Assembly: GCF_009908315.1 (NCBI RefSeq)
Contig: NZ_JAAATW010000001.1
Coordinates: forward strand, 1,116,001-1,180,000
From: Paragemmobacter ruber
GTDB taxonomy: Bacteria; Pseudomonadota; Alphaproteobacteria; Rhodobacterales; Rhodobacteraceae
DNA: 64,000 nucleotides
Direction: 5' to 3'
Shown here: positions 8,733 through 48,205 of the stretch, one piece after another
Numbering within the stretch: position 1 is the first letter of the stretch
Layout: each line of letters starts with the position of its first letter
The notes under the pieces: generated by a model
The model's input: only the letters and a program-made list of their open reading frames with translations
Database searches by the model: none
What the model was told of the DNA's origin: nothing
Program-made: the position numbers and the translations under genes

Positions 8733-8733
8733 G

Positions 8734-9744
8734 TCAGACCTCGCGCCGGGCCAGACGGCGGGCGGCGGCTTCAATGGTGTCGACCTGCGGCACGGCAGCG
8801 CGTTCCAGATCGGGGTTATAGGGAACCGGCGCATCGGCTGCGCCAAGCCGCAGGATTGGCGCGTCGAGATAGTCGAAGGCATCGCTTTCGGCGACCATCG
8901 CGCTGATTTCTGCCCCGACGCCGAAGGCTTTGACGCCTTCATAGACCACCATCAGACGCCCCGTCTTACGGACCGAGGCGAGGATCGTCTCATGATCTAT
9001 GGGCCGGATTGACCGAAGGTCGATCACCTCAGCGTTGATGCCTTCGGCAGCCAGCTTCTCGGCCGCTTCCAGAGCGCGATGCACCATGATGGAACCGGCA
9101 ACGATGGTGACATCGGTTCCCGCCCGCCGCACAAGCGCCTTGCCGATGGGAGTGTGATAGCTGCCCTCCGGCACTGGACCCTTCATCTTGTAGAGCAGCT
9201 TGTGCTCGAAGATCATCACGGGATCAGGGTCGGCCAAGGCCGCAAGCAACATGCCCTTCGCATCCTCGGGCGTTGCAGGTTGCAGGACCTTCAAGCCGGG
9301 GACATGGCCGAACCAAGCTTCGATCGACTGGCTGTGCTGGGCCGCCGCGCCAGTGCCCGAACCCGACGGCAGACGGAAAACGACCGGCACCGACGCCTCG
9401 CCCCCAAGCATGTAACGCAGCTTGGCGGCCTGATTGACAATCTGTTCCATCGCCAGCATGGCGAAATCCGAGAATTGGAACTCGTAGATTGGTTTCAGGC
9501 CCGTCAGAGCCGCACCGACCGCGACCCCGGCCCCGCCCAGTTCGGAAATCGGCGTATCCATCACGCGATCCTTGCCAAAGCGATCGACCAGATCGAGCGT
9601 CACCTGAAACGCCCCACCATAGACGCCGATATCCTCGCCCATCAAAATGACCGTGGGATCGGCTTCCATCGCGATGGCCATCGCCTCGCGGATCGCTTCG
9701 GAATAGGACAGGACACGCAGGCCTGCATCGCTCATGGCGTTCAT
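8734..9744 (-). CDS. Thiamine-dependent dehydrogenase E1 beta subunit (AcoB/PDH-beta type)
   Basis: The 336-residue protein has the transketolase central and C-terminal folds of E1 beta subunits. Typical motifs are [10 protein letters not shown] near the N-terminus, the [14 protein letters not shown] stretch and the later DLRSIRPID segment. With the alpha subunit it forms the thiamine diphosphate enzyme that decarboxylates a 2-oxo acid or cleaves acetoin and transfers the acyl group to lipoate. The start MNAMSD lies one base after the E1 alpha stop and is preceded by GGAGAG. A second in-frame Met three codons later is possible. It is tightly packed between alpha and E2 in one operon. Confidence 0.9.
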
Positions 9745-32918: not shown

Positions 32919-34618
32919 GCGGCCAGATCCTCGGGCGAGAGGGCGTAGAGCTGGGCCGCGCCTTCGCGCGCCTCGGCCAGAAGGGGGGCGTATTCCGGCA
33001 GGAGGCGGCGGATCGCCACGCGGGCCAGCGCGGTGCGCGCGCCCCCGGCAGCGTGGGCGGCGCGCAGATGGGCGTCGGCGCCAAGCACCAGCGCGAAGGC
33101 GCGCAGATAGGGTGCGGCCCCGGCGAAGCGATCGGTCATGTCCTGTTTCACGAGCGTCTCGGTCGCGTCGCGCAGGGCCTCGGCCGCCTGCCAGACATCA
33201 CCGGCGAGGTCGGGAAGGGTGGCGCGGGCGGCTTCGGCCCCGGCCTGCACCTCATCCACCAGCGCGAGGGCAGCGGCCCCGCCATCGGCCATCTTGCGGG
33301 CGACAAGATCCATCGCCTGGATGCCGTTGGTGCCTTCGTAGATCGTGGTCACGCGCACGTCGCGGGCGAACTGGGCGGCGCCGGTTTCTTCGACAAAGCC
33401 CATGCCGCCGTGGATCTGGATGCCCAGATGGGCGACCTCGTTCCCGGTATCGGTGCCATAGGCCTTGGCGATGGGGGTAAGGAGCGCGGCGCGGGCCTGC
33501 CATTCGGGGGCGTCGGTGGCGCGGGCCATGTCGATGGCCACGGCGCAGGAGAGCGCGATGGCGCGGGCCGAAAAGACCTGCGCCCGCATCCGCGCCAGCA
33601 TCCGGCGCACATCGGCATGATCGGTGATCGGCGCGCGCCCCGTGGGCGTGCGGCCCTGCACCCGGCCTTCGGCATAGGCCAGTGCCTGCTGGAAGGCGGC
33701 CTCGGCGATGCCCACGCCCTGCACGGCCACGCCCAGACGGGCGTTGTTCATCATGGTGAACATGGCCGCCATACCGCGATGCGCCTCGCCCACCAGCCAG
33801 CCTTGCGCGCCGTCATATTGCATCACGCAGGTGGGGCTGCCGTGCAGGCCCAGCTTGTGTTCGAGACTGACCACCGACAGGCTGTTGCGGCGGCCCGGAT
33901 TACCCGCCGCATCGGGGATGAACTTCGGCACGAGGAAGAGGCTGATGCCCGATGTCCCCGGCGCGCCATCGGGCAGGCGGGCCAGCACCAGATGGCAGAT
34001 GTTCGGCAGGAAATCCGCATCGCCCCAGCTGATATAAATCTTCTGCCCGGTGATCGCATAGGTGCCGTCGGGATTGGGTTCCGCCCGCGTCCGCAGCGCC
34101 CCCACATCCGACCCGGCCTGCGGTTCGGTCAGGTTCATCGTGCCGCCCCATTCCCCCGCGATGAGGCGCGGCAGATAGGTGGCGCGGATCGCGTCGGAGC
34201 CGTGATGTTCCAGCGCCTCGATCTGGCCTTGGGTCAGCAGCGGGCCCACCTGCAACGACAGGCAGGCCGCCGACATCATCTCGTTCACCGCGGTTGCGAG
34301 CGTCATGGGCAGGCCCATGCCGCCGTTTTCAGGCTGGGCCGCCATGCCGACCCAGCCGCCCTGCGCCACCGCGCGGTAGCCTTCGGCAAAACCGGGGGAG
34401 GTGCGGACCACGCCGTTTTCCAGCCGCGCGCCCTGTTTGTCGCCCACGCGGTTGAGGGGGGCGAGCACGGTTTCGGCCAGACGCGCCGCCTCGGCCAGCA
34501 CGGCGGCGGCGGTATCGGCGCCGGCTTCCGCAAAGCGGGGCGTGGCTGCGACGCGGCCATAGCCCAGGACCTGGGACAGGAGCAGATCGAAATCGGCAAG
34601 CGGGGCGCGGTAGGGCAT
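32915..34618 (-). CDS. Acyl-CoA dehydrogenase, long-form (DmdC-like)
   Basis: The 567-residue flavoprotein is longer than ordinary acyl-CoA dehydrogenases (about 380) and matches the long form with a C-terminal extension, the class that includes 3-methylmercaptopropionyl-CoA dehydrogenase DmdC. Motifs include LTEPQAGSDVGALRT, the FAD/substrate loop KIYISWGDADF and the catalytic-region segment IYEGTNGIQAMDLVARK. It oxidises an acyl-CoA to an enoyl-CoA, passing electrons to ETF. It overlaps the metallo-hydrolase gene by 4 bases. Whether it acts on sulphur compounds or ordinary fatty acyl-CoAs cannot be told. Confidence 0.88.
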   Translation of the reverse strand: MPYRAPLADFDLLLSQVLGYGRVAATPRFAEAGADTAAAVLAEAARLAETVLAPLNRVGDKQGARLENGVVRTSPGFAEGYRAVAQGGWVGMAAQPENGGMGLPMTLATAVNEMMSAACLSLQVGPLLTQGQIEALEHHGSDAIRATYLPRLIAGEWGGTMNLTEPQAGSDVGALRTRAEPNPDGTYAITGQKIYISWGDADFLPNICHLVLARLPDGAPGTSGISLFLVPKFIPDAAGNPGRRNSLSVVSLEHKLGLHGSPTCVMQYDGAQGWLVGEAHRGMAAMFTMMNNARLGVAVQGVGIAEAAFQQALAYAEGRVQGRTPTGRAPITDHADVRRMLARMRAQVFSARAIALSCAVAIDMARATDAPEWQARAALLTPIAKAYGTDTGNEVAHLGIQIHGGMGFVEETGAAQFARDVRVTTIYEGTNGIQAMDLVARKMADGGAAALALVDEVQAGAEAARATLPDLAGDVWQAAEALRDATETLVKQDMTDRFAGAAPYLRAFALVLGADAHLRAAHAAGGARTALARVAIRRLLPEYAPLLAEAREGAAQLYALSPEDLAA

Positions 34619-34773
34619 GGATCAATCCTCTGGCATGCCGGGGGCCTGCCCACCGGGGAGCGGACCGCTTGGCAAAGCGGGCTGCGGCGGATAAGGCACC
34701 GGGCAGGGCGAGGTTTGCAGACCGTCCGCGCCTTCTCAACCCCTACGCAGCGTCACGGCGCGGAGTGCCCGGC

Positions 34774-35733
34774 ATGATCGCCACGCAAGACCTGACCGAC
34801 AGCCCCGAGGATATCGCCCGCGCGGCAGAAATCCTGCGCGCGGGCGGGCTTGTCGCCTTTCCGACCGAGACGGTGTATGGGCTGGGCGGGGATGCGCGGT
34901 CGGATCATGCGGTGGCGCGGATTTTCGAGGCGAAGGGGCGGCCCCGGTTCAACCCGCTGATCGTGCATGTGCCGGATGTGGACAGCGCGCGGCGCTTCGC
35001 GCGCCTCGACGCGCGGGCCGAGGCGGTGGCGGCGGCGTTCTGGCCCGGCCCCCTGACGCTGGTGCTGCCGCTGCGCGCGGATGCGGGCGTGTCGCCGTTG
35101 GTGACGGCGGGGCTGGAGACGGTGGCGATCCGGGTGCCTGCCCATCCCGTGGCGCGGGCGCTGTTGCAGGCCTTTGGCGGGCCGCTGGCCGCGCCATCGG
35201 CCAATCCGTCGGGCAAGGTATCGCCGACGCGGGCGGATCATGTGCGCGCGGGGCTGGCCGGGCGGATCGAGGCAATCCTTGACGGCGGGGCCTGCGCGGT
35301 GGGGGTGGAATCCACCATCCTCGGGCTTGAGGGAGCGCCCAGCCTGCTGCGCCCCGGCGGGGTGCCGGCCGAGGCGCTGGAGGCGGTGCTGGACTGCGCG
35401 CCGGTGGCAGGGGGCAGTGCCGCGCGGCCCAATGCGCCGGGGCAACTGGCCAGCCATTACGCGCCGGGGGCCATGGTGCGGCTGGAGGTGACGGTGCCGG
35501 AGCCGGGCGAGATCTGGGTGGGCTTCGGCCCCTGCCCCGGCGCGGCGCTGAGCCTGTCGGAGACAGGCGATCTGGTGGAGGCGGCGGCGCGGCTGTTCCA
35601 TGTGCTGCGCGAGGCGGATGCGCTGGCCGGTGCGGGGGCGAGCGGGCGGATCGCCTTCGCACCCGTGCCGGAGACGGGGCTGGGGCGCGCGATCAACGAT
35701 CGGCTGCGGCGGGCGGCGGCGCCACGCGGGTGA
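34774..35733 (+). CDS. L-threonylcarbamoyladenylate synthase (Sua5 type)
   Basis: The 319-residue protein has the YrdC domain (AFPTETVYGLGGDA, then PLIVHV, RIPAHP-type motifs and SANPSGKVSPT) and a C-terminal Sua5 domain (about 220-319). It makes the threonylcarbamoyl-AMP used for t6A in ANN-decoding tRNAs. The ATG at 34774 is preferred to a longer frame because the YrdC domain begins shortly after. The 44-bp double palindrome starts immediately at its stop codon. Confidence 0.93.
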   Translation: MIATQDLTDSPEDIARAAEILRAGGLVAFPTETVYGLGGDARSDHAVARIFEAKGRPRFNPLIVHVPDVDSARRFARLDARAEAVAAAFWPGPLTLVLPLRADAGVSPLVTAGLETVAIRVPAHPVARALLQAFGGPLAAPSANPSGKVSPTRADHVRAGLAGRIEAILDGGACAVGVESTILGLEGAPSLLRPGGVPAEALEAVLDCAPVAGGSAARPNAPGQLASHYAPGAMVRLEVTVPEPGEIWVGFGPCPGAALSLSETGDLVEAAARLFHVLREADALAGAGASGRIAFAPVPETGLGRAINDRLRRAAAPRG

Positions 35734-35777
35734 CAAATTTCTTCGAAGAAATTTGCAAAAATCTTCGAAGATTTTTG
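35734..35777. repeat. 44-bp double palindrome, copy 1
   Basis: Two adjacent perfect 22-bp palindromes, the first centred on the CTTCGAAG core with AAATTT arms and the second with AAAAAT arms. The block begins one base after the sua5-type stop codon and lies between convergent genes. The same 44 bases occur at 46062-46105. Confidence 0.95.
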
Positions 35778-35808
35778 ATCGGATGGCCCAGGCAATCCGA
35801 TGCCCGGT

Positions 35809-36807
35809 TCAGTCGAAGGTCCCGGTCACCCGCCCGAACAGCATGAAGGCGCGCGCCGTGCGGGTATCGGCGAGAGCGTTGAGATCGGCGTCCGAGGCGT
35901 TGCGTTCAAATTCCTGAAACGTCTTGTCGAAGCTGCGCAGGAAATGGTGCGCGGCATCGCGGAAGACCGGGTCTTCGCGCATCCTTGCCCCAGTCAGCGC
36001 GAGGGAAGAGCGGTCGCGGATGCCGCCCAGCGCGGCGATGGGGCGGCCGCGTTCGCCTTGGGCGAACTTGCGCCAGAGTTCTGGGCGGGCGCGTTCGGGG
36101 GGCAGGTCATCCATGTAGATGCCTTCCTGCGACAGAAGCGTCAGCACATCCTGCGCGGCGCGGATCAGCTTGGCGGTGGTGCGATCCTCCAGCGCGGCGC
36201 GCAGGGCGCGGAACCCCTCGCGGTCATCGGGGTTGTCGGGAAAGTTCAGCGCGCGGATGAAATCGGCAACCGACAGGGGGGCGCGCAGATCTTCGGCCGG
36301 GGTGCCGAGGGCGAGGGCGGGCTGTTCCTCCTGCGGGGCGGGGCGAGGGGGCACCAGCGCGGCCTTGCGGTCTGCCGAGGGCACGGTGAGGCCCGGATCG
36401 CGCCGGGTCTGGAAACTGGCCTGCGGGGCGGGGGCGTCTTCGCCGCGCGGATCGGGCGCGGGCTTGATCGCGGCCTGTTTCTGCTGGCCGGCGAGATAGG
36501 CCTTGCGCATCGCATCCACCGTTGCCTGCAGGCGCGCGGCTTCGGCCCGCAGGACGCGGACGGAGCGCAGGGTTGTGACCGCGGCCCAAATCAGCGCCAG
36601 CGGCAGGAAGACGGCGACCAGCGTCATCACGGTGCCGAACACACCGCCAAAGCCGCCTTCGGGTGCGAGCAGGACATAGGCGATGACCGCAAGCACCCAG
36701 ACCACCGCCAGAAGCCCGCCCACCAGTTCGGTCGGGCCGAAGGCGGGGCCGTCCTCGCGGCGCTGGTAAATCCCCAAGGGTTCGGGTCTGTCGTGGTCTT
36801 CCGGCAT
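35809..36807 (-). CDS. Hypothetical two-helix membrane protein
   Basis: The 332-residue protein has two transmembrane helices near the N-terminus (about 28-48 and 56-76), followed by a coiled-coil-like stretch (RVLRAEAARLQATVDAMRKAYLAGQQKQ). A Pro/Ala-rich linker leads to a conserved helical domain (about 175-332). I know of no assigned function. It lies 66 bases after greA on the same strand and may be cotranscribed. Confidence 0.7.
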   Translation of the reverse strand: MPEDHDRPEPLGIYQRREDGPAFGPTELVGGLLAVVWVLAVIAYVLLAPEGGFGGVFGTVMTLVAVFLPLALIWAAVTTLRSVRVLRAEAARLQATVDAMRKAYLAGQQKQAAIKPAPDPRGEDAPAPQASFQTRRDPGLTVPSADRKAALVPPRPAPQEEQPALALGTPAEDLRAPLSVADFIRALNFPDNPDDREGFRALRAALEDRTTAKLIRAAQDVLTLLSQEGIYMDDLPPERARPELWRKFAQGERGRPIAALGGIRDRSSLALTGARMREDPVFRDAAHHFLRSFDKTFQEFERNASDADLNALADTRTARAFMLFGRVTGTFD

Positions 36808-36841
36808 TCTGTTCCCGTCTTCCCCTTCTGCGCCTGGCCAT

Positions 36842-36858
36842 CGCGACGGAACGTCGCG
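36842..36858 (-). terminator. Hairpin after greA
   Basis: A perfect 7-bp stem (CGCGACG with CGTCGCG) and GAA loop lie 15 bases downstream of the greA stop. No U-tract follows, so it may only partly end transcription before the membrane-protein gene. Confidence 0.4.
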
Positions 36859-36873
36859 GCGACCGGGCCGCGT

Positions 36874-37344
36874 TCAGACGTAGAGGATCTTCAGGATCTC
36901 ATAGCTTTTCTGGCCGCCGGGGGTTTTCACCTCGACGCTGTCGCCCTCTTCCTTGCCGATCAGGGCGCGGGCGAGGGGGGAGCGCATGTTCAGAAGCCCG
37001 CGTTCGATATCGGCCTCGGCCTCGCCCACGATCTGGTAGGTGCGCTCTTCGTCGGTATCTTCATCGACGATGGTGACGGTGGCGCCGAACTTGATCGCGC
37101 CGGACAGTTTCGACGGGTCGATCACATCGGCCAGCGACAGCATCGCCTCAAGCTCCTTGATGCGGCCTTCGATGAAGGACTGCTTTTCGCGGGCGGCGTG
37201 GTATTCGGCGTTTTCCGACAGGTCGCCATGTTCGCGCGCCTCGGCGATGGCGCGGATCACGGCGGGGCGTTCGACCGATTTCAGGGTCTTGAGCTCTTCG
37301 TCCAGCGCGGTGAAACCCGCGCGCGTCATCGGAATCTTTTCCAT
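36874..37344 (-). CDS. greA: Transcription elongation factor GreA
   Basis: The 156-residue protein is full-length GreA. The N-terminal coiled coil (about 1-75, with [21 protein letters not shown] carrying the catalytic acidic tip) inserts into the RNA polymerase secondary channel to rescue backtracked complexes. The C-terminal FKBP-like domain ends [17 protein letters not shown]. Confidence 0.97.
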
Positions 37345-37640
37345 CGGTCCCTGCGTAACAAAAGGAAGGCCACGGCCCCGTTTCGGGGGCAGTGGCGCGG
37401 TACGATCTGCGATCTTCTGTCACAACTGAACCGACCGGGGGCGCAATTGCAAGGGGCTGCCCGCCGCGGGCGCGGCCCGGCGCGCGCGAAAGCGCCGCAA
37501 GAACGGGCAGGATGCCGCAATGCGACATTGTGATGCCGCGTTACGATTGACCCCCGCGCGCGGCTTGGGCTAGGGGAAAGGCCGCGACGGCAATATTATT
37601 GCGCGGAGCCAGTGGGAAACGCGGTGAGGGAGCAGGCAGC
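37345..37640. promoter_or_regulatory. Divergent intergenic region between greA and ETF-QO
   Basis: About 296 bases holding the promoters of both genes. TTGACC at 37547-37552 is followed 18 bases later by TAGGGG, a weak promoter pattern for the plus-strand gene. GCAAT-ATT-ATTGC near 37591 is a small dyad. No gene is seen. Confidence 0.35.
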
Positions 37641-39287
37641 ATGGCCGACATCGTCCGTGAGTCGATGGAATATGATGTGGTGATCGTGGGGGCAGGCCCG
37701 GCGGGCCTGTCGGCGGCGATCCGGCTGAAGCAGCTTGACCCCGACATGACGGTGGTGGTGCTGGAGAAGGGGTCCGAGGTCGGGGCGCATATCCTGTCGG
37801 GTGCGGTGCTGGATCCCAGCGGCCTGGACGCGCTGCTGCCCGATTGGCGCAGCATGGGCGCGCCGATCAAGACCGAGGTGACGGAGGACAATTTCTATAT
37901 CCTCGGCCCTGCCGGGCAGGTGCGGATTCCGAATTTCCCCATGCCGCCCCTGATGAACAACCACGGCAATTACATCGTTTCCATGGCCAATGTCTGCCGC
38001 TGGATGGCGGGGGTGGCCGAGGGCCTTGGCGTGGAGATTTTCCCGGGCATGAGCGCGAGTGCGCTGGTCTATGACGGCGACCGGGTGAAGGGCGTGGTCG
38101 CGGGCGAGTTCGGCCGCGATCCGGCGACGGGCGAGCCGGGGCCGGCTTACGAGCCGGGGATGGAACTGCACGGGAAATACGTCTTCCTGTCCGAAGGCGT
38201 GCGCGGGTCGCTGTCGAAAGAGGTCATCGCCAAGTATGACCTGTCGAAGGGGAAGTGCCCGCAGAAGTTCGGCCTTGGCATGAAGGAAATCTGGGAGATC
38301 GACCCCGCCAAGCACCGCGAAGGCACGGTCACGCATACGATGGGCTGGCCGCTGGGCAGCAATGCGGGCGGCGGGTCGTTCATCTATCACCTTGAGAACA
38401 ATCAGGTTTATGTGGGTTTCGTCGTTCACCTGAACTATGAGAACCCGCATCTCTATCCCTATATGGAATTCCAGCGGTTCAAGCATCACCCGATGGTGGC
38501 CGAGCTTCTGAAGGGCGGCAAGCGCGTGGCCTATGGCGCGCGGGCCATCAGCGAGGGGGGCTGGCAGTCGATCCCCAAGATGGTGGCGCCGGGTGTGGCG
38601 CTGCTGGGCTGTTCGGCGGGCCTCGTGAACGTGCCGCGCATCAAGGGCAACCACAACGCCATGCTGTCGGGCAAAGCCGCCGCCGAGGCCGCCCATGCCG
38701 CGATCAAGGCGGGCCGCGCGGGCGACGAACTGGCGGAATATGAAACCGCCGTGCGGACCGGGCCGATCGGCAAGGACCTGCGCAAGGTGCGCAACGTCAA
38801 GCCGCTGTGGTCCAAGTACGGGCTGGTGGCGAGCCTGATGGGCGGCGGGATCGACATGTGGGCCAATACCTTCGGCCTGACGATCTTTGGCACGCTCAAG
38901 CACGGCAAATCGGACGCGGCGGCGACGGGGCTGGCCAAGAACCACAAGCCCATCGACTACCCCAAGCCCGATGGCGTTCTGTCCTTCGACCGGCTGACCA
39001 ACGTCGCCTACAGCTTTACAAACCATGACGAGGCGCAGCCTGCGCATCTGAAGCTGAAGGATCCGTCGATCCCGATTGCGGTGAACCTGCCGAAATATGC
39101 CGAACCGGCGCAGCGCTATTGCCCGGCGGGGGTGTATGAAGTGCTGGGCGAAGGCGATGATGCCAAGTTCAGGATCAATTTCCAGAACTGCGTGCATTGC
39201 AAGACCTGCGATATCAAGGACCCGAGCCAGAATATCAACTGGACCACGCCGCAGGGCGGGGGCGGGCCGAACTATCCCAACATGTGA
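37641..39287 (+). CDS. Electron transfer flavoprotein-ubiquinone oxidoreductase
   Basis: The 548-residue protein has an N-terminal FAD-binding motif (VVIVGAGPAGLSAAI, about 13-27), the LEKGSEVGAH strand, a ubiquinone-binding middle region and a C-terminal 4Fe-4S module (NCVHCKTCDIKDPSQNI with an upstream Cys in YCPAGVYE). It passes electrons from ETF, and hence from acyl-CoA dehydrogenases such as the one at 32915-34618, to ubiquinone in the inner membrane. The ATG at 37641 follows GGGAGCAGG and fits family starts. Confidence 0.96.
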   Translation: MADIVRESMEYDVVIVGAGPAGLSAAIRLKQLDPDMTVVVLEKGSEVGAHILSGAVLDPSGLDALLPDWRSMGAPIKTEVTEDNFYILGPAGQVRIPNFPMPPLMNNHGNYIVSMANVCRWMAGVAEGLGVEIFPGMSASALVYDGDRVKGVVAGEFGRDPATGEPGPAYEPGMELHGKYVFLSEGVRGSLSKEVIAKYDLSKGKCPQKFGLGMKEIWEIDPAKHREGTVTHTMGWPLGSNAGGGSFIYHLENNQVYVGFVVHLNYENPHLYPYMEFQRFKHHPMVAELLKGGKRVAYGARAISEGGWQSIPKMVAPGVALLGCSAGLVNVPRIKGNHNAMLSGKAAAEAAHAAIKAGRAGDELAEYETAVRTGPIGKDLRKVRNVKPLWSKYGLVASLMGGGIDMWANTFGLTIFGTLKHGKSDAAATGLAKNHKPIDYPKPDGVLSFDRLTNVAYSFTNHDEAQPAHLKLKDPSIPIAVNLPKYAEPAQRYCPAGVYEVLGEGDDAKFRINFQNCVHCKTCDIKDPSQNINWTTPQGGGGPNYPNM

Positions 39288-39357
39288 TCGGCCCGTAATC
39301 TGATTGGCGCGTCATCCCTCCGGTCTGACATTTGCGTGTGAATCAGCAGGAAACGGC

Positions 39358-39386
39358 GGGCCGGGACGGGGAAACCCGCCCGGCCC
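39358..39386 (+). terminator. Hairpin with GAAA tetraloop after the ETF-QO gene
   Basis: A 12-bp GC stem (with one bulged A at 39366) is capped by a GAAA tetraloop 70 bases after the stop. It has no U-tract. It probably marks the 3' end of the upstream mRNA, before the TPR protein gene. Confidence 0.55.
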
Positions 39387-39446
39387 GATTGCCTATGGCC
39401 CATGGCGCGGCTAGCTTTGAGGCAGCCCTGCAGGAGATGCTTGTCG

Positions 39447-41180
39447 ATGCCGTTGCACCCCCGCCGCCTTGTTGCCGTGGTTCTTGCCGGGGCGCTGGCC
39501 CTGCCCCCTGCCCTGCCCGTTGCCGCGCAGACGCCGATGCCCACGCCAGAAGGATCGGCGGGGGCCTATCTTTCGGCACAGGTGGCCGCATCGCAGAGCG
39601 ATTTCCGCGAGGCCGCGCGCTGGTATGACCGGCTGATCGAGCTGGGCGTGATGGACCCGGCCACGCTGGAAGGCGCGGTGATCGCGCATCTGAGCCTTGG
39701 CGATGTGGCGCGGTCGGCGGAACTGGCGCGGCTTTTGGTGCAGCAGGGCGGGCGCAGCCAGACGGCCTATATCGCGCTGCTGACCGATCAGGCCCAGCGG
39801 GGCGAGTTTGCCGCGCTGATCGCCGATACGCAGGCGGGCCGGTCCATCGGGCGGCTGCTCGACGATCTGGTGCTGGCCTGGGCGGCGCTGGGTGACGGGC
39901 GGATGTCGGATGCGGTGGCGGGGTTCGACACGCTGGCCGCCTCGCCGGGGCTGGAGGCGTTCGGCCTGTATCACAAGGCGCTGGCGCTGGCATCGGTCGG
40001 GGATTTCGAGGGGGCGGACAACATCCTTTCGGGGCGTGAGGCGGGGCAGATCGCGCTGATGCGGCGGGGGGCCATTGCCCATGCCCAGATCCTGAGCCAG
40101 CTGGAACGCAACCCCGAGGCGCTGGCCCTGCTGGAGCGGGCCTTTGGCACCGAGGCGGACCCGCAGATCGACCCGCTGCGCGCGCGGCTGGCGGCGGGGG
40201 AGCCGGTGCCCTTTGACATCGTCACCTCGCCCGTGGACGGGATCGCCGAGGTGTTCTTTACCCTGTCCACCGCCCTGCGCGGCGAGGCGGAGGATGGCTA
40301 TACCCTGCTATACGCGCAGGCGGCGGCCTATCTGCGGCCCACCCATTCCGAGGCCGTGCTGATGGCGGCGGGGCTTTTGGAGGCGCTGGACCAGCACGCG
40401 CTGGCGGGCGAGACCTATGCCCGGATCGCAGCCGATGATCCGGCCTATCACGTGGCCGAGATCGGGCGCGCGAACACGCTGATCGCGCAGGACAAGACCG
40501 AGGCCGCGCTGGAAGTGCTGCAGGCGCTGACGCGCAGCCATGGCCAGATCATCGAGGTGCCGGCCGCGCTGGCCGATGCGCTGCGGCGGCAGGAACGCTT
40601 TGCCGATGCGATCCCGGTCTATACGCAGGCGATCGCGCTGATCCCGGAGGCCGAGCAGCGGCATTGGACGCTGTATTACTCGCGCGGGATCAGCAATGAA
40701 CGCGCGGGCAACTGGCCCGAGGCCGAGGCCGATTTCCGCCGCGCGCTGGAGTTGAACCCCGACCAGCCGCAGGTGTTGAACTATCTGGGCTATTCCTTCG
40801 TGGACCGGGGCGAGAATCTGGAAGAGGCGCTGGGGATGATCGAACGCGCGGTCGCCGCGCAGCCGGACGCGGGCTATATCATCGACAGTCTTGCCTGGGC
40901 GCTGTTCCGGCTGGGCCGCTATCAGGATGCGCTGGAGCCGATGGAACGCGCGGCGCTGCTGGAGCCCGTCGATCCTGTGGTGACGGACCATCTGGGCGAT
41001 GTCTATTGGGCCGTGGGCCGCAAGCTTGAGGCGCGGTTCCAGTGGCACCGGGCGCTGTCCTTCGACCCGACGGAGAAGGACGCCGCCCGCATCCGCCGCA
41101 AGCTGGAGGTGGGGCTGGATGCCGTGCTGGCCGAAGAGGGCGCAAAGCCGCTGACCGAAGTGGCGAATGGCGGCAACTGA
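39447..41180 (+). CDS. Exported tetratricopeptide repeat protein
   Basis: The 577-residue protein has a signal peptide ([19 protein letters not shown], cleavage near VAA-Q). It is built largely of TPR-like helical repeats. The clearest are near the C-terminus, with [38 protein letters not shown] and [23 protein letters not shown] arrays act as protein-binding scaffolds, here presumably periplasmic or membrane-attached. It overlaps ispE by 14 bases, a common order in Rhodobacteraceae. No specific partner can be named. Confidence 0.85.
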
Positions 41181-42009
41181 GTTCGCCCCGGCCAAGATCA
41201 ACCTGACCCTGCATGTCATCGGGCGGCGGGCGGATGGCTATCATCTGCTGGATTCGCTGGTGGTCTTTGCCGGGGTGGGGGATCGCGTGTCGGCGATTCT
41301 GTCGGATCTGCCGTCGCTTGACGTGACGGGGCCGATGGCGGCGGGGCTGACGGGTGAGGGCGACAATCTGGTACTGCGGGCGGCGCGGGTGATGGGCGTT
41401 TCGGCGCGGATCGCGCTGGAAAAGGTGCTGCCCGTATCTTCCGGCATCGGCGGCGGATCGGCGGATGCGGCGGCGACGCTGCGGCTTCTGGCACGGATGA
41501 CCGGGCGGGCGCTGCCCGGGGCGGCCGAAGTGCTGGCGCTGGGGGCGGATGTGCCGGTCTGTCTGGCCGGGCGGGCGGCGCGGATGTCGGGGATCGGCGA
41601 GGGGCTGGCAGAGGTGCCCCCGCTGCCGCAGGCGTGGCTGGTGCTGGCCAATCCGCGGGTGGCGGTATCCACCCCTGCGGTGTTCCGGGCGCTGGTGCGG
41701 GCCGACAATGCGCCCATGCCGCGCGAGATGCCGCGCCTGCGCGGCGTGGCCGAGCTTGCGGCCTTTGTCGCCATGCAGCGCAACGATCTGGAAGCGCCTG
41801 CCATGGCCGAATTGCCGGTGATCGGCCGGGTCAAGGCGGCGCTGTCGGCGCAGGCAGGATGCCGGGTGGCGCGGATGTCGGGATCGGGGGCCACCTGTTT
41901 CGGCCTGTTCGACGATCCCCTGTCGGCGCGCGCGGCCGCGCAGGCCATCCGCGCGGCCGAACCGGCATGGTGGGTGGCGGATGCGCCGCTGCTTCAGCCC
42001 CAGTCGTGA
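41167..42009 (+). CDS. ispE: 4-diphosphocytidyl-2-C-methyl-D-erythritol kinase
   Basis: The 280-residue GHMP kinase has the N-terminal [21 protein letters not shown] motif and the ATP-binding glycine loop [15 protein letters not shown] (about residues 88-102). IspE carries out the ATP-dependent step of the non-mevalonate isoprenoid pathway, feeding polyprenyl synthesis (see the polyprenyl synthase at 42853). It overlaps the TPR gene upstream and the convergent OB-fold gene by 16 bases. Confidence 0.95.
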
Positions 42010-42320
42010 CGGAAAGCGATCTCTGTCCCATCGGCGCGGCGCAGGGCGCGAGCCACGAATTCGGGCGGGAACCCCTCTTCCAGCGCGCCCAGCACCGTCA
42101 CCTCTTCGCCCACCTGAACGGGCAGGTCATTGGGGCCGACATAGACGGTAACGACGCCGCTTTCATCTTTGAGCCGGAAGGCATCGGCATCGGTGATGCG
42201 CATCACCTTGCCCGTCACCGTGACGGGCTGGCCGCGCGGGGCCTTGGTGATGGGAACGGGGGCGGCGAAAGCGGCAGAGGCCGACAGAAGGACGGCGGCC
42301 ATGGCGGCGGAACGGATCAT
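41994..42320 (-). CDS. Exported OB-fold (BOF/YgiW-like) protein, copy A
   Basis: The 108-residue protein has a signal peptide ([18 protein letters not shown]) and a small beta-barrel of the bacterial OB-fold type ([22 protein letters not shown], then [20 protein letters not shown]). BOF proteins are periplasmic and bind small cations or ligands. The ATG at 42320 is favoured since AGGGAG lies 6 bases upstream; ATG 42326 is an alternative. It is a paralogue of the next gene. Confidence 0.75.
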
Positions 42321-42400
42321 CGTCATCTCCCTGCAGTGTTTTCGTTGCAAAGGGAGGTGGGAAAGCCGCCCGCCCTTGGCAAGGGGGCGGCTGGGCGGGA

Positions 42401-42760
42401 TCATTCATACGGATGATCAAAGGTCACACGGCTGCCATCCGCGCGGGTGGCGTCTCGCGCATAAACCGCCAGCCGGCCGAAATCGCGGTCCACGATCCCG
42501 CGGAGGGTGACCGTCTCGCCCGTGTCAAAAGGCACGATGCCCGGGCCGATATGGACGAGGACCGATCCGCTGTCGTCGCGCAGGCGGAATGTGTCCGCAC
42601 CCGTGATGCGGTCAACGATGCCGGTGATGGTGGCGGTGGTGCCGTCATGCAGATCGGCGATGGCGACAGTGTCGGTGGCGGGGCCAGTGTTTTCGGGGCC
42701 AGCGTTTGCAGGCGGCGGCGCACCCGGCAGGAGGCCGCCAAGGATGAGAAGGCTGCGCAT
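42401..42760 (-). CDS. Exported OB-fold (BOF/YgiW-like) protein, copy B
   Basis: The 119-residue protein has an N-terminal signal (MRSLLILGGLLPGAPPPANA) and the same OB-fold layout as copy A (TATITGIVDRITGADTFRLRD, then VLVHIGPGIVPFDTGETVTLRG). Shared order and motifs show tandem duplication with divergence. It lies upstream of copy A with an 80-base gap, so the two may be one transcript. Function unknown; periplasmic location predicted. Confidence 0.75.
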   Translation of the reverse strand: MRSLLILGGLLPGAPPPANAGPENTGPATDTVAIADLHDGTTATITGIVDRITGADTFRLRDDSGSVLVHIGPGIVPFDTGETVTLRGIVDRDFGRLAVYARDATRADGSRVTFDHPYE

Positions 42761-42852
42761 GGTTGTCCCCCCGGATGTTTTCCAGGAGGTCGGGGGGCGT
42801 CGGTCCGGGTGCAAGCGGCCTGACGCGAAGTTGACCCTGCGTGAGGGGCGGA

Positions 42853-43854
42853 TCAGTTGATCCGCGCCACCACGTAATCGGCCAGATCCGACAGCATGTC
42901 GCGCAATTCATGGGCGGGCAGGATGTCCAGCGACCGGCGGGCCGTATCGGCCCAATGCAGCGCCGCATCGCGCGCGGCCTGCATCGCGCCATGGCGATCC
43001 ATGATGGCGCGGGCGCGGGCGAGGTCGCCTTCCTGCTGATCGCCCTTTTCGATGGTGCGCTGCCAGAAGGCGCGTTCTTCCGCATCGGCCTGCGCCACGG
43101 CCTTGATGACCGGCAGCGTCAGCTTGCGTTCGCGGAAATCATCGCCGGTGTTCTTGCCGATGGCGGCATCCGTGCCGCCGTAATCCAGAAGATCATCGAC
43201 GATCTGGAACGCGATGCCCAGCGCATCGCCATAGGCGCGGAGCGCCTGCACCTGCGCCTCTGGCGCGGCGGCGACGACGCCGCCCACCTCCATCGCGGCG
43301 GCAAACAGCGCCGCCGTCTTGCCCCGGATCACCTGCAGATAGATGGCTTCGGTCGTGGCCAGATCCTGCGCGGCGGTGAGTTGCAGCACCTCGCCTTCGG
43401 CGATCACGGCAGAGGCATTGGCGAGGATGTCCATCACCCGCAGCGATTCCGTTTCCACCATCAGCTGGAAGGACCGGGCAAAGAGGTAATCCCCGACAAG
43501 GACCGAGGACTTGTTGTCCCACAGCAGGTTCGCCGTGGGCCGCCCCCGGCGGCGTTCGCTTTCATCGACCACATCGTCATGCAGGAGCGTGGCGGTGTGG
43601 ATGAATTCCACGGTGGCGGCCAGTTTCACATGGTTGTCGCCGTCATAGCCGCACATGCGCGCGGCGGCGAGGGTGAGCATGGGACGCAGGCGTTTTCCCC
43701 CGGCCTCGACCAGATGGGCGGTCACTTCGGGGATGCGCGGGGCGTGTTCGCTGGCCATGCGGGTGCGGATCAGTGCATTGACCGCCGCCATGTCGGCGGC
43801 CAGCCATGCGGCCAAACGATCATGCGGTTTGCGCGCGGCTTCGTCCAAACCCAT
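42853..43854 (-). CDS. Polyprenyl diphosphate synthase (octaprenyl/decaprenyl type)
   Basis: The 333-residue trans-isoprenyl diphosphate synthase has the first aspartate-rich motif LLHDDVVDESERRRGRPT and the second DDLLDYGG, with the GKRLRPML entry motif near residue 53. It condenses isopentenyl diphosphates into the long side chain of ubiquinone, so it draws on the IspE pathway. The residues before the first DDxxD favour long-chain products (C40-C50). Alphaproteobacteria usually make C50, so the chain length is not fixed here. Confidence 0.93.
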   Translation of the reverse strand: MGLDEAARKPHDRLAAWLAADMAAVNALIRTRMASEHAPRIPEVTAHLVEAGGKRLRPMLTLAAARMCGYDGDNHVKLAATVEFIHTATLLHDDVVDESERRRGRPTANLLWDNKSSVLVGDYLFARSFQLMVETESLRVMDILANASAVIAEGEVLQLTAAQDLATTEAIYLQVIRGKTAALFAAAMEVGGVVAAAPEAQVQALRAYGDALGIAFQIVDDLLDYGGTDAAIGKNTGDDFRERKLTLPVIKAVAQADAEERAFWQRTIEKGDQQEGDLARARAIMDRHGAMQAARDAALHWADTARRSLDILPAHELRDMLSDLADYVVARIN

Positions 43855-43909
43855 GCCCCTGTTCCCCCGCCTCTCGACATTCCGGGGCGCTGCCCCTTAA
43901 CTCTGCTCC

Positions 43910-44128
43910 ATGAGAGAGCTTTTGCGCAGCACCGACCCGACGATCATCGCTTTTGCCACCGCCCTGCTCGAGGGCGAGGGTATAGACGTGTTTGATCTGG
44001 ACGTCCACATGAGCATCCTCGATGGCAGCCTTGGCATATTGCCGCGCCGGTTGATGGTGCGGGATGCCGATCATTTCATGGCCTCGGCCGTGCTGCGTGA
44101 CAACGGGATTCCCACGGGGCTGGAATGA
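43910..44128 (+). CDS. DUF2007 domain protein
   Basis: The 72-residue protein has the DUF2007 pattern: RELLRSTDPTIIAFATALLEGEGID, followed by a loop and RLMVRDADHFMASAVLRDNGI. Such proteins have a ferredoxin-like fold and are thought to be signal-transduction or PII-like. It overlaps the methyltransferase by 4 bases and is divergent from the prenyl synthase. Confidence 0.85.
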   Translation: MRELLRSTDPTIIAFATALLEGEGIDVFDLDVHMSILDGSLGILPRRLMVRDADHFMASAVLRDNGIPTGLE

Positions 44129-44910
44129 CCGAAGGCGGCGGGGTCTTTGCCGAGGCGGACCTGTCGGATGACAAGTTCCTGATGGGGCGGCTGCGGCTGC
44201 TGCAACCCCTGCGCGGCTATCGCGCGGCGACCGATCCGGTGCTGCTGGCCGCCGCCTGCCCGGCCGGGGCGGGCGAGAGCGTGCTGGATCTGGGCTGCGG
44301 GGCGGGGGCGGCGGCGCTGTGCCTTGCGGCGCGGGTGCCGGGGGTGGTGCTTTCGGGGCTGGAGGTGCAGGCGGGCTATGCCGATCTGGCGCGTCGCAAT
44401 GCAGCGCGCAACGAGGTGGTGATGGAGGTGGTGCAGGGCGATCTGGCCGCGATGCCGCGCGCGCTGCGCCGGGATTTCGATCATGTGATCGCCAACCCGC
44501 CCTATTACGCCCCGGGCGGCACGCCATCGCCCATCGCCGAACGTGACCGCGCGCTGCGGGTGGAGACGCCGATCGCCGCCTGGGTGGCGGCGGCCGGGGC
44601 GCGGCTGCGGCCGGGCGGGTGGCTGACGATGATCTTTGCCACGCCCTGCCTGCCCGAAGCGCTGACGGCGCTGGCGCCAAAGCTGGGCTCGGCGGTCGTG
44701 CTGCCGCTGGAGCCGCGCGCAGGCCGCGCGGCGCCGCGCGTGATCCTGCGGGCGCGCAAGGGCGGGCGGGCGGCGTTCCGGCTGCTGGCGCCCTTTACCC
44801 TGCATGCGGGCGCAGGCCATGACGGGGACCGGGAAAGCTATACCCCCGCCGCCACGGCGGTTCTGCGGGAAGGTGCCGATCTGTCGGCGGCTTTTGGCAA
44901 GATCACTTAA
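44125..44910 (+). CDS. tRNA1(Val) adenine-N6 methyltransferase-like SAM enzyme
   Basis: The 261-residue protein has the class I SAM-binding motif VLDLGCGAGAAAL and the N6-adenine methyltransferase signature NPPYY, with the GYRAATDPVLLAAACP N-terminal segment of the TrmN6/YfiC family. It probably methylates A37 of a tRNA or another nucleic acid. It is translationally coupled to the DUF2007 gene. Confidence 0.87.
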   Translation: MTEGGGVFAEADLSDDKFLMGRLRLLQPLRGYRAATDPVLLAAACPAGAGESVLDLGCGAGAAALCLAARVPGVVLSGLEVQAGYADLARRNAARNEVVMEVVQGDLAAMPRALRRDFDHVIANPPYYAPGGTPSPIAERDRALRVETPIAAWVAAAGARLRPGGWLTMIFATPCLPEALTALAPKLGSAVVLPLEPRAGRAAPRVILRARKGGRAAFRLLAPFTLHAGAGHDGDRESYTPAATAVLREGADLSAAFGKIT

Positions 44911-45002
44911 GACTGTCAGAATTCTGATGTCGATTGTCCGTGACACGACTCGGGGGTTGTGATGCACTTGTTACATTGCAACCAGACATGAGGAGGACAG
45001 AT

Positions 45003-45170
45003 ATGACGATTGCTTCGCATCTGCAGGAACTGCGCCGCAAGCATGAGCACCTCTCTGACATGGTCGAGCGTGAGCAGCGAAGCCCCGGCGCGGATGCCTT
45101 GCGGATTGCCGAGCTGAAGAAGCAGAAGCTCAAGCTCAAGGAAGAAATGACCCGCCTGCAGCAGGCGTAA
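45003..45170 (+). CDS. DUF465 (YdcH-like) small coiled-coil protein
   Basis: The 55-residue protein is a charged helix (LQELRRKHEHLSDMVEREQRSP, then RIAELKKQKLKLKEEMTRLQ), matching the DUF465 family of small antiparallel coiled-coil hairpins. AGGAGGACAG gives a strong ribosome-binding site. Function unknown. Confidence 0.85.
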   Translation: MTIASHLQELRRKHEHLSDMVEREQRSPGADALRIAELKKQKLKLKEEMTRLQQA

Positions 45171-45174
45171 GGGA

Positions 45175-46050
45175 TCATTCCCCGGCGCTGGCCCCCGCGC
45201 CTGCCGAGGCGCGGGCGGCCAGCGCTGCCCCCCCGGTGATCAGCACCGCCGCCGCGAGCAGGGTCCAGCTGGCGGGTGTGATACCGGTTGCGACAAGTGC
45301 CAGCGTAGAAAGCAGCGGCGCCGCGTAGGAGGCGACGCCCAGAAGCTGGATATCGCCCTGCTTCATGCCGATGTCCCAAGTGAAGAAGGCCGCGCCCACC
45401 GGCCCGATGCCCAGCGCGAGTATGGACAGCCAGCCGATCCCGGTGGCAGGCCAGACGGTTTCTTCCCATGCCAGATGGGCGAGGGCCGACAGCACCGCCG
45501 TGCCAAGGCAAAAGACAGTGACACTTTCGGTGGGCACATCGCCCAGGCGGCGCGACAGGGTGGAATAGCCCGCCCATGTGATCGCGCAGAGAAAGCCCAG
45601 AAACAGACCCAGCGGCGTGGCATTTCCCCCCGCGTCGCGCCCCAGAACGATCAGCGCGGCCCCGGCAAAGGCGACCACGGCCCCGATCAGCACGATGGGG
45701 CGCAGGCGTTCCCCGGGCAGGAAACTGGCGAAAAGGACGATGAAGAGCGGCCAGAGATAGGCCATAAGCCCCGTTTCCGCCGACGGCGCGATGCGGAAGG
45801 CGGTGAAGTAAAGCGCGTGATAGCCGAAAAGGCCGATGATGCCGAAGGCATAGACGCGCCAGGATATGCCGCGCAGGCGGCCCAGCCCGCCCCGCAGCGT
45901 CCAGATCAGGCCTAGCGTGCCGCCGATGGCAAAGGTCAGCGCGTTCAAGAGGAAGGGCGGCACCGGGGCCGATCCGATGGTGAAGAGCGCCAGCAGCGCC
46001 CACATCAGGACGGCAGTAAAGCCGATGGCGGTTGCGCGTGACGTCTTCAT
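45175..46050 (-). CDS. EamA/DMT family transporter
   Basis: The 291-residue protein has ten predicted transmembrane helices in two EamA repeats (about 10-135 and 150-280), with motifs such as RIAPSAETGLMAYLWPLFIVLFASFLPGERL and GPVGAAFFTWDIGM. DMT permeases export metabolites or amino acids. The start at 46050 follows AGGCAGGG. An upstream frame runs through the palindromic repeat and was rejected. The 44-bp repeat ends 12 bases before its start codon. Confidence 0.87.
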   Translation of the reverse strand: MKTSRATAIGFTAVLMWALLALFTIGSAPVPPFLLNALTFAIGGTLGLIWTLRGGLGRLRGISWRVYAFGIIGLFGYHALYFTAFRIAPSAETGLMAYLWPLFIVLFASFLPGERLRPIVLIGAVVAFAGAALIVLGRDAGGNATPLGLFLGFLCAITWAGYSTLSRRLGDVPTESVTVFCLGTAVLSALAHLAWEETVWPATGIGWLSILALGIGPVGAAFFTWDIGMKQGDIQLLGVASYAAPLLSTLALVATGITPASWTLLAAAVLITGGAALAARASAGAGASAGE

Positions 46051-46061
46051 CCCTGCCTCAC

Positions 46062-46105
46062 CAAATTTCTTCGAAGAAATTTGCAAAAATCTTCGAAGAT
46101 TTTTG
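46062..46105. repeat. 44-bp double palindrome, copy 2
   Basis: Identical over all 44 bases to the copy at 35734-35777. Here it lies between the phaB terminator and the EamA gene, so it forms the 5' leader of the latter. Flanking bases differ, so this is a dispersed repeat, not a duplicated gene region. Confidence 0.95.
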
Positions 46106-46132
46106 GCCCTTCTATCGGCTGCGGCGCAAAAG

Positions 46133-46161
46133 CAAAAGGCCCGCGCCGGGCGCGGGCCTTT
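46133..46161 (-). terminator. Rho-independent terminator of phaB
   Basis: On the minus strand a 12-bp stem (AAAGGCCCGCGC with its complement) and 3-base loop are followed by a T-rich tract, 20 bases past the phaB stop. This is a convincing terminator for the phaA-phaB transcript. Confidence 0.85.
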
Positions 46162-46180
46162 CTCTGCGACGGCTGTCGCT

Positions 46181-46906
46181 TCAAACGAAGAACTGCCCGC
46201 CATTGGCCGAGATGGTGGAGCCGGTGATGAAACCCGCATCGTCCGAGGCGAGGAAGACCACCGTCCGGGCGATCTCTTCCGGTTCGCCCAGACGGCCCAC
46301 CGGGATCTGCGGGATGATCCGCTCGTTCAGCACCTTTTCGTCGATGGCCTTGACCATCTCGGTCGCGATATAGCCCGGGCAGATCGCGTTCACCGTGATG
46401 CCCGCCCGCGCGCCTTCCTGCGCCAAGGCCTTGGTGAAGCCCAGATCGCCCGACTTGGCGGCGGAATAGTTGGCCTGCCCCGCCTGCCCCTTCTGCCCGT
46501 TGATCGACGAGATGTTGATCACCCGCCCGAACTTGCGGTCGCGCATCCCCGACCACAGCGGGTGGGTCATGTTGAACAGACCCGTCAGGTTGGTGTCGAT
46601 CACCTCTTTCCACTGCTGCGGGGTCATCTTGTGGAACATGGCGTCGCGGGTGATGCCCGCATTGTTCACCAGCACATCCACTGGGCCGACCTCGGCCTCG
46701 ACCTTGGCGATGCCCGCCACGCAGGCGTCGTAATCCGCGACCGACCATTTGTAGGTGGGGATGCCCGTTTCCTTGGTGAAGGCGGCCGCCGCCTCATCAT
46801 TCCCGGCATAGTTCGCGGCCACCTTGTAGCCCGCCGCCTTCAGCGCCACCGAAATCGCGGCGCCGATCCCGCGCGAACCACCTGTTACCAAAGCCACTCG
46901 TGCCAT
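46181..46906 (-). CDS. phaB: Acetoacetyl-CoA reductase
   Basis: The 241-residue short-chain dehydrogenase has the NADP motif VTGGSRGIGAAIS (residues 7-19), the catalytic Ser and Tyr-x-x-x-Lys (INISSINGQKGQAGQANYSAAK) and the family-specific C-terminal NGGQFFV. It reduces acetoacetyl-CoA to (R)-3-hydroxybutyryl-CoA for polyhydroxybutyrate. It is downstream of phaA on the same strand, but a strong hairpin lies between. Confidence 0.96.
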   Translation of the reverse strand: MARVALVTGGSRGIGAAISVALKAAGYKVAANYAGNDEAAAAFTKETGIPTYKWSVADYDACVAGIAKVEAEVGPVDVLVNNAGITRDAMFHKMTPQQWKEVIDTNLTGLFNMTHPLWSGMRDRKFGRVINISSINGQKGQAGQANYSAAKSGDLGFTKALAQEGARAGITVNAICPGYIATEMVKAIDEKVLNERIIPQIPVGRLGEPEEIARTVVFLASDDAGFITGSTISANGGQFFV

Positions 46907-46961
46907 TCGTCCCTCCTCCTGAAATCGGACATTCTTGAAACGGTGTTACCGAAATGAAGAA

Positions 46962-46986
46962 GGGCGCGCAACATTATTGCGCGCCC
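46962..46986 (-). terminator. Strong hairpin between phaA and phaB
   Basis: A perfect 10-bp stem (GGGCGCGCAA with TTGCGCGCCC) with 5-base loop CATTA is followed on the minus strand by a T-rich run (TTCTTCATTTC). It has the features of a terminator or attenuator within the apparent phaA-phaB unit. Confidence 0.75.
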
Positions 46987-47032
46987 ATTTCGCATCTGCG
47001 GCATTGTGGCCGCAGAAAGATCAGCGCGAGGA

Positions 47033-48205
47033 TCAGCGCTCTAGGCACATGGCCACGCCCATGCCGCCGCCGATGCACAGCGTGGCAAGGCCGCGCTTTG
47101 CATCGCGGCGGGCCATTTCGAACAGGAGCGTGTTCAGGATGCGCGCGCCCGAGGCACCGATCGGGTGGCCGATGGCGATGGCGCCGCCGTTCACGTTCAC
47201 GATGGCGGGGTCCCAACCCATGTCCTTGTTCACGGCGCAGGCCTGGGCGGCGAAGGCCTCGTTCGCCTCGACCAGATCCAGATCGCCGACCTTCCAGCCC
47301 GCCTTGGCCAGCGCCTTGCGGCTGGCATGGATCGGGCCGACGCCCATGATCGACGGATCGAGCCCCGCGGTGGCGTAAGAGGCGATGCGCGCCAGCGGCG
47401 TCAGCCCGCGCTTTTCCGCCTCTTCCGCCGACATGATCAGCACCGCCGCCGCGCCATCGTTCAGCCCGCTGGCATTGCCCGCCGTGACCGACCCGTCCTT
47501 GGTGAAGGCAGGCTTCAGCTTGGCCATCGACTCCAGCGTCGCGCCGTGGCGGATGTATTCATCCGAATCGACCGTCACATCGCCCTTGCGGGTGGAGATG
47601 GTGAAGGGGATCACCTCATCCTTGAACTTGCCGGCCTTCTGCGCGGCCTCGGCCTTGTTCTGGCTGGCCAGCGCGAATTCATCCTGCATGTCGCGGCTGA
47701 TCTGCCACTGGGCCGCCACGTTTTCCGCCGTCTGGCCCATATGATAGCCGTTGAAGGCATCCCAGAGCCCGTCCTTGATCATCGAATCGACGAATTTCAT
47801 GTCGCCCATCTTGGTGCCCGCGCGCATGTGCGCGACGTGGGGCGACAGCGACATGCTTTCCTGCCCGCCCGCGACCACGATCCGCGCATCGCCCAGTTGC
47901 ACATGCTGCGCGCCCAGCGCCACCGCCCGCAGGCCCGACCCGCAGACCTGATTGAGCGACCATGCGCTGGCCTCCTTGGGCAGGCCCGCCTTGATATGCG
48001 CCTGACGGGCCGGATTCTGCCCCTGCCCCGCCGTCAGAACCTGACCGAGGATCGTCTCCTCCACTTCGGCCTTGTCGATGCCCGCCCGTGCGACCACCGC
48101 TTCGATCACCGCGGCGCCAAGGTCATGCGCCGGGGTATTGGCGAAGGAACCGTTGAAACTGCCCACGGCCGTACGGCCTGCGGAAACGATGACGACATTG
48201 GTCAT
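47033..48205 (-). CDS. phaA: Acetyl-CoA acetyltransferase (beta-ketothiolase)
   Basis: The 390-residue thiolase has the active-site Cys in [14 protein letters not shown] (about residue 88), the C-terminal [19 protein letters not shown] with His, and the second Cys in [15 protein letters not shown]. It condenses two acetyl-CoA to acetoacetyl-CoA for PHB synthesis. The start [10 protein letters not shown] is preferred over a longer frame. Confidence 0.96.

Follow-up and report, generated by a model that had tools for sequence, protein, structure and literature searches.

RIME and SIME, the mosaic elements of rhizobia, are alphaproteobacterial intergenic mosaics with palindromes and in this respect resemble the element described here. 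The GTAG- and CGTC-tagged REP and BIME elements are described as short intergenic palindromes that often occur as dimers of unlike units and lie mostly near 3' ends, where the neighbouring genes converge or run in the same direction (PMC3733652). The CGTC families belong mostly to alphaproteobacteria and seemingly have no dedicated transposase (PMC3733652). More than 100 REPs per genome has been called usual (PMC2817692), and REP families of 20-100 or fewer units have also been described (PMC3733652). REP dimers are said to prefer unlike partners with 'no obvious explanation', one suggestion being clearance through cleavage of the SbcCD type (PMC3733652). A REPIN folds into a single long hairpin, and REPINs are associated with RAYT genes (PMC3116915). 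Among terminators, V- and X-shaped forms are described classes (PMC8355165), and convergent sites are reported to be over-represented among the intrinsic terminators of Zymomonas (PMC7566282).

The window, the whole 64-kb stretch of DNA analysed, contains an unchanged 44-mer at 35734-35777 and 46062-46105, as the first-pass annotation had observed, and each copy consists of two perfect, abutting 22-bp palindromes, a structure we call a twin (Table 1). The annotation had placed copy 1 at a stop codon between convergent genes and copy 2 before a start codon, and both positions were confirmed. The first base of copy 1 is the base right after the stop codon of the Sua5-type gene. In the minus-strand sense, the reductase gene is upstream of copy 2. 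The core CTTCGAAG occurs seven times in the window, compared with 0.76 expected, and four of the seven lie within the two copies. The terminator scan detected no terminator-like site at copy 1, and it picked up only 46139-46151 of the conventional hairpin near copy 2. A search of Rfam over window positions 34000-48000 (E up to 10) gave 10 matches, all below the gathering score and none inside a twin, so the twin was not assigned to an Rfam RNA family. Two leader-family matches on the plus strand were centred on the adjacent hairpin and extended 3-5 bases into the end of copy 2. With the low-complexity filter on, the repeat had no plasmid match at E 0.01 and a single 21-base partial match among phages (E 0.06). 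The reductase protein matched three loci of viral contigs, which were left out of the analysis. Elsewhere in the window (8173-8751) is a 249-base direct repeat with 73% identity, 330 bases apart.

Table 1. Coordinates of the two twin copies and the features around them, numbered from the first base of the window.
Feature	Position	Strand	Details
L-threonylcarbamoyladenylate synthase gene (Sua5 type)	34765..35733	+	TIGR00057, PF01300, PF03481; stop codon adjoins copy 1
Copy 1, palindrome 1	35734..35755	.	CAAATTTCTTCGAAGAAATTTG
Copy 1, palindrome 2	35756..35777	.	CAAAAATCTTCGAAGATTTTTG
Convergent gene	35809..36807	-	no Pfam match; end 31 bases from copy 1
EamA/YddG-type exporter gene	45175..46050	-	NF050091, PF00892; start codon 11 bases from copy 2
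Copy 2, palindrome 1	46062..46083	.	
Copy 2, palindrome 2	46084..46105	.	
Conventional G+C-rich hairpin followed by a T-rich run	46135..46161	-	between reductase gene and copy 2
Acetoacetyl-CoA reductase gene (phaB-like)	46181..46906	-	TIGR01829; under the PhaB equivalog model cut-off

The 44-mer is one variant (allele) of a dispersed family of twins in Rhodobacteraceae. In the genome of 3.96 Mb, the 44-mer was present at eight places with up to three mismatches (four exact and four with one mismatch), and the reversed control was present at none; the annotation had named the existence of just two copies as the case against its reading. Counted genome-wide with up to three mismatches, the first half-palindrome was found at 37 places and the second at 17. 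A looser twin pattern, in which the core and the junction were fixed and the arms were free, was found at 27 places in the genome (reversed control, 0), and 28 twins of this genome entered the combined set. Each half has approximately the form CAA-nnnn-CTTCGAAG-nnnn-TTG, with near-fixed ends and core and variable, paired arms, and can be folded into its own hairpin of about nine pairs. The fixed features of the twin are its spacing (cores 22 bp apart), its core and its junction, TTGCAA. A sequence-blind search of 892,489 bases of GTDB loci, every one of which had been fetched because of a twin, gave 161 palindrome pairs at distances of 16-59 bp, and in 117 of these the distance was exactly 22 bp. 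In two genomes (L094, near 3471, and L095, near 1733), a third palindrome, CCGGAATTTTCGAAAATTCCGG, lies one base past the twin.

Of the 19 genus genomes, 18 had twins (up to three mismatches). In the sample of the order (up to two mismatches), twins were detected in 22 of 390 genomes, which represent 15 of 140 genera and all come from the same family. The sample of the class gave one positive genome among 385, which was the window's own, and none among the 380 outside Rhodobacteraceae. These patterns fix the core, and twins with other cores are therefore missed in these distribution counts. The GTDB scan gave at least 116 stretches with twins, 80 of them titled; among the matches listed, 71 of the 80 titled rows bear names that we take to be those of Rhodobacterales, and the other nine come from two MAGs labelled Exiguobacterium (eight rows) and Bosea (one row). 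The twin-bearing MAG loci are L107, L112, L114, L129, L137, L138, L147 and L157 (CP059262.1; labelled Exiguobacterium profundum) and L117 (labelled Bosea sp.). The flanks of L112, L147 and L117 are common to Rhodobacterales loci, so the Exiguobacterium and Bosea labels look wrong.

Searches were pooled and deduplicated to a set of 248 twins, which still includes chance or atypical pairs (the second entries of L101 and L196 and rows of L227 and L229); six twins of the set are inside a gene call and four are without usable neighbours. The stretches from G006, G008, G010, G011 and G016 came from a search with the region of copy 1 and therefore favour the copy 1 variant. Taking one site per orthologous group gave 124 independent sites, which may retain some of the L101, L196, L227 and L229 rows.

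The halves of the twins were each kept self-complementary and were kept different from one another. In an alignment of 69 distinct twins from the 124 sites, chosen for near-standard cores and at most two stem mismatches, 98.1% of stem cells were paired compared with 79.3% in shuffles, the covariation score was 0.517 compared with 0.147 (reached by 0 of 500 shuffles), and stem cells changed on both sides numbered 233 compared with 66. The cells of the rival long hairpin, which would join the two halves, were paired in 77.3% of cases, compared with a shuffle mean of 80.0%, and all 500 shuffles equalled or exceeded the observed value. Identical arms were absent from all 248 twins, compared with 28 expected when halves were re-paired, and a single arm difference was present in two. 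Among the 124 independent sites, one had at most one arm difference, compared with 35.8 expected and a minimum of 22 in 5,000 shuffles.

With DNA parameters, the difference between the halves was enough for two hairpins to beat the single 44-base hairpin. Two hairpins were preferred by 182 of 183 perfect natural twins and the long hairpin by one, where the long-hairpin energy is that of the register pairing position i with 45-i, evaluated without a full constrained fold. Two hairpins were preferred in none of 366 duplicated halves, and when natural halves were re-paired two hairpins won in a fraction of 0.54 for one arm difference and of 1.00 for two arm differences. Under RNA parameters, two hairpins were preferred by 135 of the 183 twins and the long hairpin by 48; in the window's own twin the long hairpin won (-11.8 for two hairpins vs. 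-14.9 kcal/mol). These calculated folding energies suggest a possible reason for the unlike halves.

The centre of the palindromes also departs from the standard CG in an ordered manner. Read from outer to inner, departures were GG (30) and TG (15) vs. CC (3) and CA (4), with six others, and they followed the dyad of the twin itself and not transcription (45 vs. 7; 13 vs. 3 at independent sites). In the standard form (TTCGAA/TTCGAA), one loop of the twin is the complement of the other. Most single loop changes disrupt one loop pair, and four twins altered in both loops stay complementary (GG with CC; fewer than one expected, by eye). Hairpin stability of the first vs. the second half along transcription had no clear bias (45 vs. 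52 of 122).

The annotation had proposed a protein-binding site as one possibility, and a duplex-DNA site for a host protein, with two dimers side by side, could be the target of a nucleoid factor or an insulator, to name two examples. Such a site would fit the constant spacing, the core CTTCGAAG and the TTGCAA junction, as well as the dyad-oriented departures at the centre and the lack of a sense-strand G-U preference (see below). A duplex dimer site leaves unexplained why the freely varying bases stay paired within each half and avoid pairing between the halves; neither would be required by a protein that reads fixed bases symmetrically. We consider a duplex site quite unlikely to be the explanation.

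Twins are mostly located right after stop codons, above all between convergent genes. Of 332 transcript entries, 194 had the start of the twin 0-9 nt past the stop codon and 244 had it at most 19 nt past. The 124 independent sites comprised 48 convergent, 60 tandem and nine divergent sites, four sites without usable neighbours and three inside a gene call. A stop codon was at most 20 nt away at 92 of the 117 independent sites with two neighbours (26 + 20 convergent, 46 tandem). At tandem sites, the upstream stop codon was within 20 nt at 46 of 60 and the downstream start codon was within 20 nt at 20 of 60. Convergent sites were in excess (48 of 117 vs. 136 of 834 gene pairs, p 6e-9) and divergent sites were in deficit (9 of 117 vs. 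134 of 834, p 0.02), with gene calls from a purpose-built gene finder and a baseline that includes twin-bearing gene pairs. When only gaps of 50-1000 bases were used as the baseline (92 convergent and 127 divergent of 508), the p-values were 5e-7 for the convergent excess and 2e-5 for the divergent deficit.

The placement right after stop codons and the convergent excess are also what an ordinary bidirectional, V-shaped intrinsic terminator acting through sense-strand RNA would produce. V- and X-shaped terminators, as described (PMC8355165), likewise have abutting hairpins after stop codons that are usable both ways, an architecture that the two predicted hairpins of the twin match, and terminators of Zymomonas are enriched at convergent sites (PMC7566282). 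A classic intrinsic terminator has a G+C-rich stem and a U-tract, and the twins lack the latter: TTTT was present in the next 12 nt in only 2 of 332 entries. T-run terminators were present at a smaller share of the convergent ends that have a twin (7 of 172) than of those that lack one (26 of 160) and were equally frequent at tandem ends with (14 of 103) and without a twin (52 of 383), in a comparison of gaps of 40-600 bases from which twinless gene ends bearing TTCGAA were dropped and in which orthologs were counted separately.

The evolution of the arms also differed from that reported for terminators. On 115 tree edges, stem pairs were changed on both sides in 63 cases and on one side in 43. 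The two-sided changes comprised 21 of the A-T/G-C type, 21 A-T/T-A swaps, six C-G/G-C swaps and 15 others, whereas 79% of switches were A-U/G-C in terminators of B. cereus (PMC5381666). Unpaired cells on the sense strand of tandem sites were G-U in 14, A-C in 12 and other in 17 cases (independent sites: four, three and seven, which are small counts), compared with a G-U intermediate in 68 and A-C in eight of the 76 resolved switches of B. cereus (PMC5381666); the tests against the B. cereus figures rest on non-independent counts. At convergent sites, G-T numbered 19 and A-C eight; each strand is a sense strand there, and the choice of orientation is arbitrary. The arm changes did not follow a G-U route, so the stems of the twins evolve differently from RNA hairpins of the sense strand. 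This means that both strands are of importance or that copies exchange half-words. Some of the arm changes could come from the exchange of entire half-words among copies, which would weaken the argument for selection on pairing. Given the missing U-tract and the arm changes, a sense-strand RNA terminator is a rather unlikely account of the twins.

Many twins were inherited in place. Both flanks were shared in 48 groups, although three of these (L113, L135 and L149) are two entries of one locus, and an orthologous twin was detected among the fetched loci for 22 of the 28 twins of the window's genome. The twin distance was 0.96 for orthologous pairs of sites (n = 49), 2.53 for different sites within one genome (n = 736) and 3.01 for all remaining pairs (n = 5,543), in a comparison of the 113 of 248 twins that had an assignable genome and at most two stem mismatches. 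The conservation of orthologous sites, together with the dispersed copies and the stems that stay paired while their letters vary, supports the proposal in the annotation that the repeat is selected.

The gene pair around copy 1 was kept in 10 of the 19 genomes of the genus. The same twin was present at this site in the window's genome, G011, G006, G004 and G007 (one loop base changed), a twin with different letters in both halves was present in G017, and a single palindrome was present in G015. G010 had hairpins with GACGC/GCGTC loops at this site, and G003 and G012 had no twin there though they kept the gene pair. At the site of copy 2, a twin was located between the reductase and exporter genes in 11 of the 19 genomes (by eye), that of G007 with small insertions, and all 11 twin-bearing genomes had a T-run hairpin between the reductase stop codon and the twin. 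G004 and G001 carry GACGC-type hairpins besides the twin, G003, G018 and G002 carry only GACGC-type arrays, and neither twin nor GACGC hairpin was seen by eye in G012, G013, G005 and G014 (the site in G009 was unreadable). G009 is a genus member of 1.5 Mb with a completeness of 96% and has one match for each hairpin family.

The position of copy 2 is the strongest fact against twins solely ending genes. The twin follows a conventional T-run hairpin, in an arrangement that relatives share, so ending the upstream gene is not its role there. A TAGAA-like box was seen by eye before the copy 2 twin, and a scan for consensus promoters before copy 2 detected no promoter. To judge from its location, the copy 2 twin may be in the 5' leader of the exporter gene.

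The annotation had suggested a mobile palindromic element, and new sites must indeed arise; near-identical copies dispersed among different flanks, the patchy occurrence across genera and the dimer architecture shared with REPs (PMC3733652) would be expected of a non-autonomous REPIN- or MITE-like palindrome whose gene-end position is simply where insertions are tolerated. The target duplications that the annotation had proposed to look for did not appear: direct repeats in the flanks were not above the control, which is unlike a MITE, and inverted 2-base flanks were in slight excess (27 vs. 15.3). A Y1-type REP transposase (PF01797 above cut-off) was detected in none of the 19 genus genomes, with one match below the cut-off in G006, whereas the same search was positive in 5 of 14 control genomes. 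In the genus, the twins thus differ from REPs that have a RAYT. The copies mostly stay put between species and are strongly biased to the first 20 nt past stop codons, and the long hairpin of the REPIN type is avoided, in the pairing of stem cells as well as in the energies with DNA parameters, all of which argues against mobility. A mobile palindrome is accordingly the least probable of these alternatives, and we think it improbable.

REP dimers are the closest known kind to the twins. Like REP dimers (PMC3733652), twins are dimers of unlike partners at gene ends. They satisfy the general description of REPs as palindromic, 20-40 bp long, mostly intergenic and present in many copies (22 bp; the 28 twins of the genome are at the low end), and they are next to 3' ends with few between divergent genes. 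They differ from REPs and BIMEs in having no GTAG or CGTC tag, a zero spacer, a length of 22 + 22, near-perfect palindromes and no identical halves (0 of 248). No unpaired GTAG or CGTC was typical of the twin ends: within 8 nt of a twin end at the 124 independent sites, GTAG was present twice, CGTC five times, CTAC twice and GACG seven times, compared with 0, 12, 0 and 10 in a control window 32-40 nt away. Like REPINs (PMC3116915), twins combine two palindromic units, one inverted relative to the other, in a single element, but they avoid the long hairpin (cross pairs in 77.3% of cells, with no shuffle lower) and have no Y1-type gene above cut-off in the genus. Since tags and a Y1 transposase above cut-off were absent in the genus and the REPIN fold was avoided, we filed the twins as REP-like and untagged. 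The evolution of the stems, which is not of the G-U type, and the absence of a U-tract set the twins apart from V- and X-shaped terminators.

A second hairpin family, with GACGC/GCGTC loops, occurs in the same genomes. The sequence GGAATTTGACGCAAATTCC was present with up to two mismatches in all 19 genus genomes, and the window's genome had 10 forward and 11 reverse matches of the family. Forty loci (37 from G002 and three from G003) contained 42 clusters of at least two hairpins, 25 of which consisted of two GACGC-type followed by two GCGTC-type loops. Abutting hairpins with the same inner stem numbered one in 66, a count with no computed expectation. The family, observed at G002 loci L364-L400, in the window's genome and at L211, L338 and L342, has directional loops, often four hairpins, unlike neighbouring stems and a location near gene ends. 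It appears to follow both rules of the twins, namely unlike neighbouring stems and dyad-symmetric loops. The numbers of TTCGAA twins and GACGC hairpins showed no trade-off over the 19 genomes (rho -0.14, p 0.56). Other paired hairpins, with the loops TCGCCAGA, TCTGCGA and TGCGCGCA/TGCGCCCA, were observed in Rhodobacterales loci L132 (around 6095-6150) and L170.

The best explanation of the whole, to which we assign a probability of roughly 0.55, is that the twin is an untagged, REP-like heterodimer of palindromes in Rhodobacteraceae. The number of about 28 twins is low for such a family, since more than 100 REPs per genome has been called usual (PMC2817692). Several features of this reading can be graded separately. 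We lean towards the removal of identical halves through the long hairpin: a twin with identical halves would form a long perfect hairpin that could be cleaved, deleted or misfolded. We judge it an even bet that the relevant hairpins are those of both strands, whether in DNA or in the two transcripts, and not those of the sense RNA alone. The sequence-based suggestion that a twin in place would act as a two-way gene-end barrier, through termination, 3'-end protection, or a host factor that stops or insulates from either side, is more tentative, its odds being slightly short of even; nine of the 124 independent sites are divergent, which argues against it. A further, unlikely possibility is a DNA-level code for folding apart, in which selection or clearance would keep the pair at least two arm differences apart, two hairpins with complementary standard loops would form on both strands at the ends of transcription units, a factor of Rhodobacteraceae would read them, and the twins would spread without RAYT.

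A search of the open-access literature found no report on this repeat, and a 13-base piece of it also had no match, so the twins give Rhodobacteraceae a set of gene-end elements with no earlier report found in that literature. The rule of unlike halves is near absolute in this family (0 of 248 twins have identical arms), and its threshold matches DNA folding energies. A rule that is near absolute and has a measurable threshold makes both the clearance of long hairpins and the function of separate hairpins directly testable.
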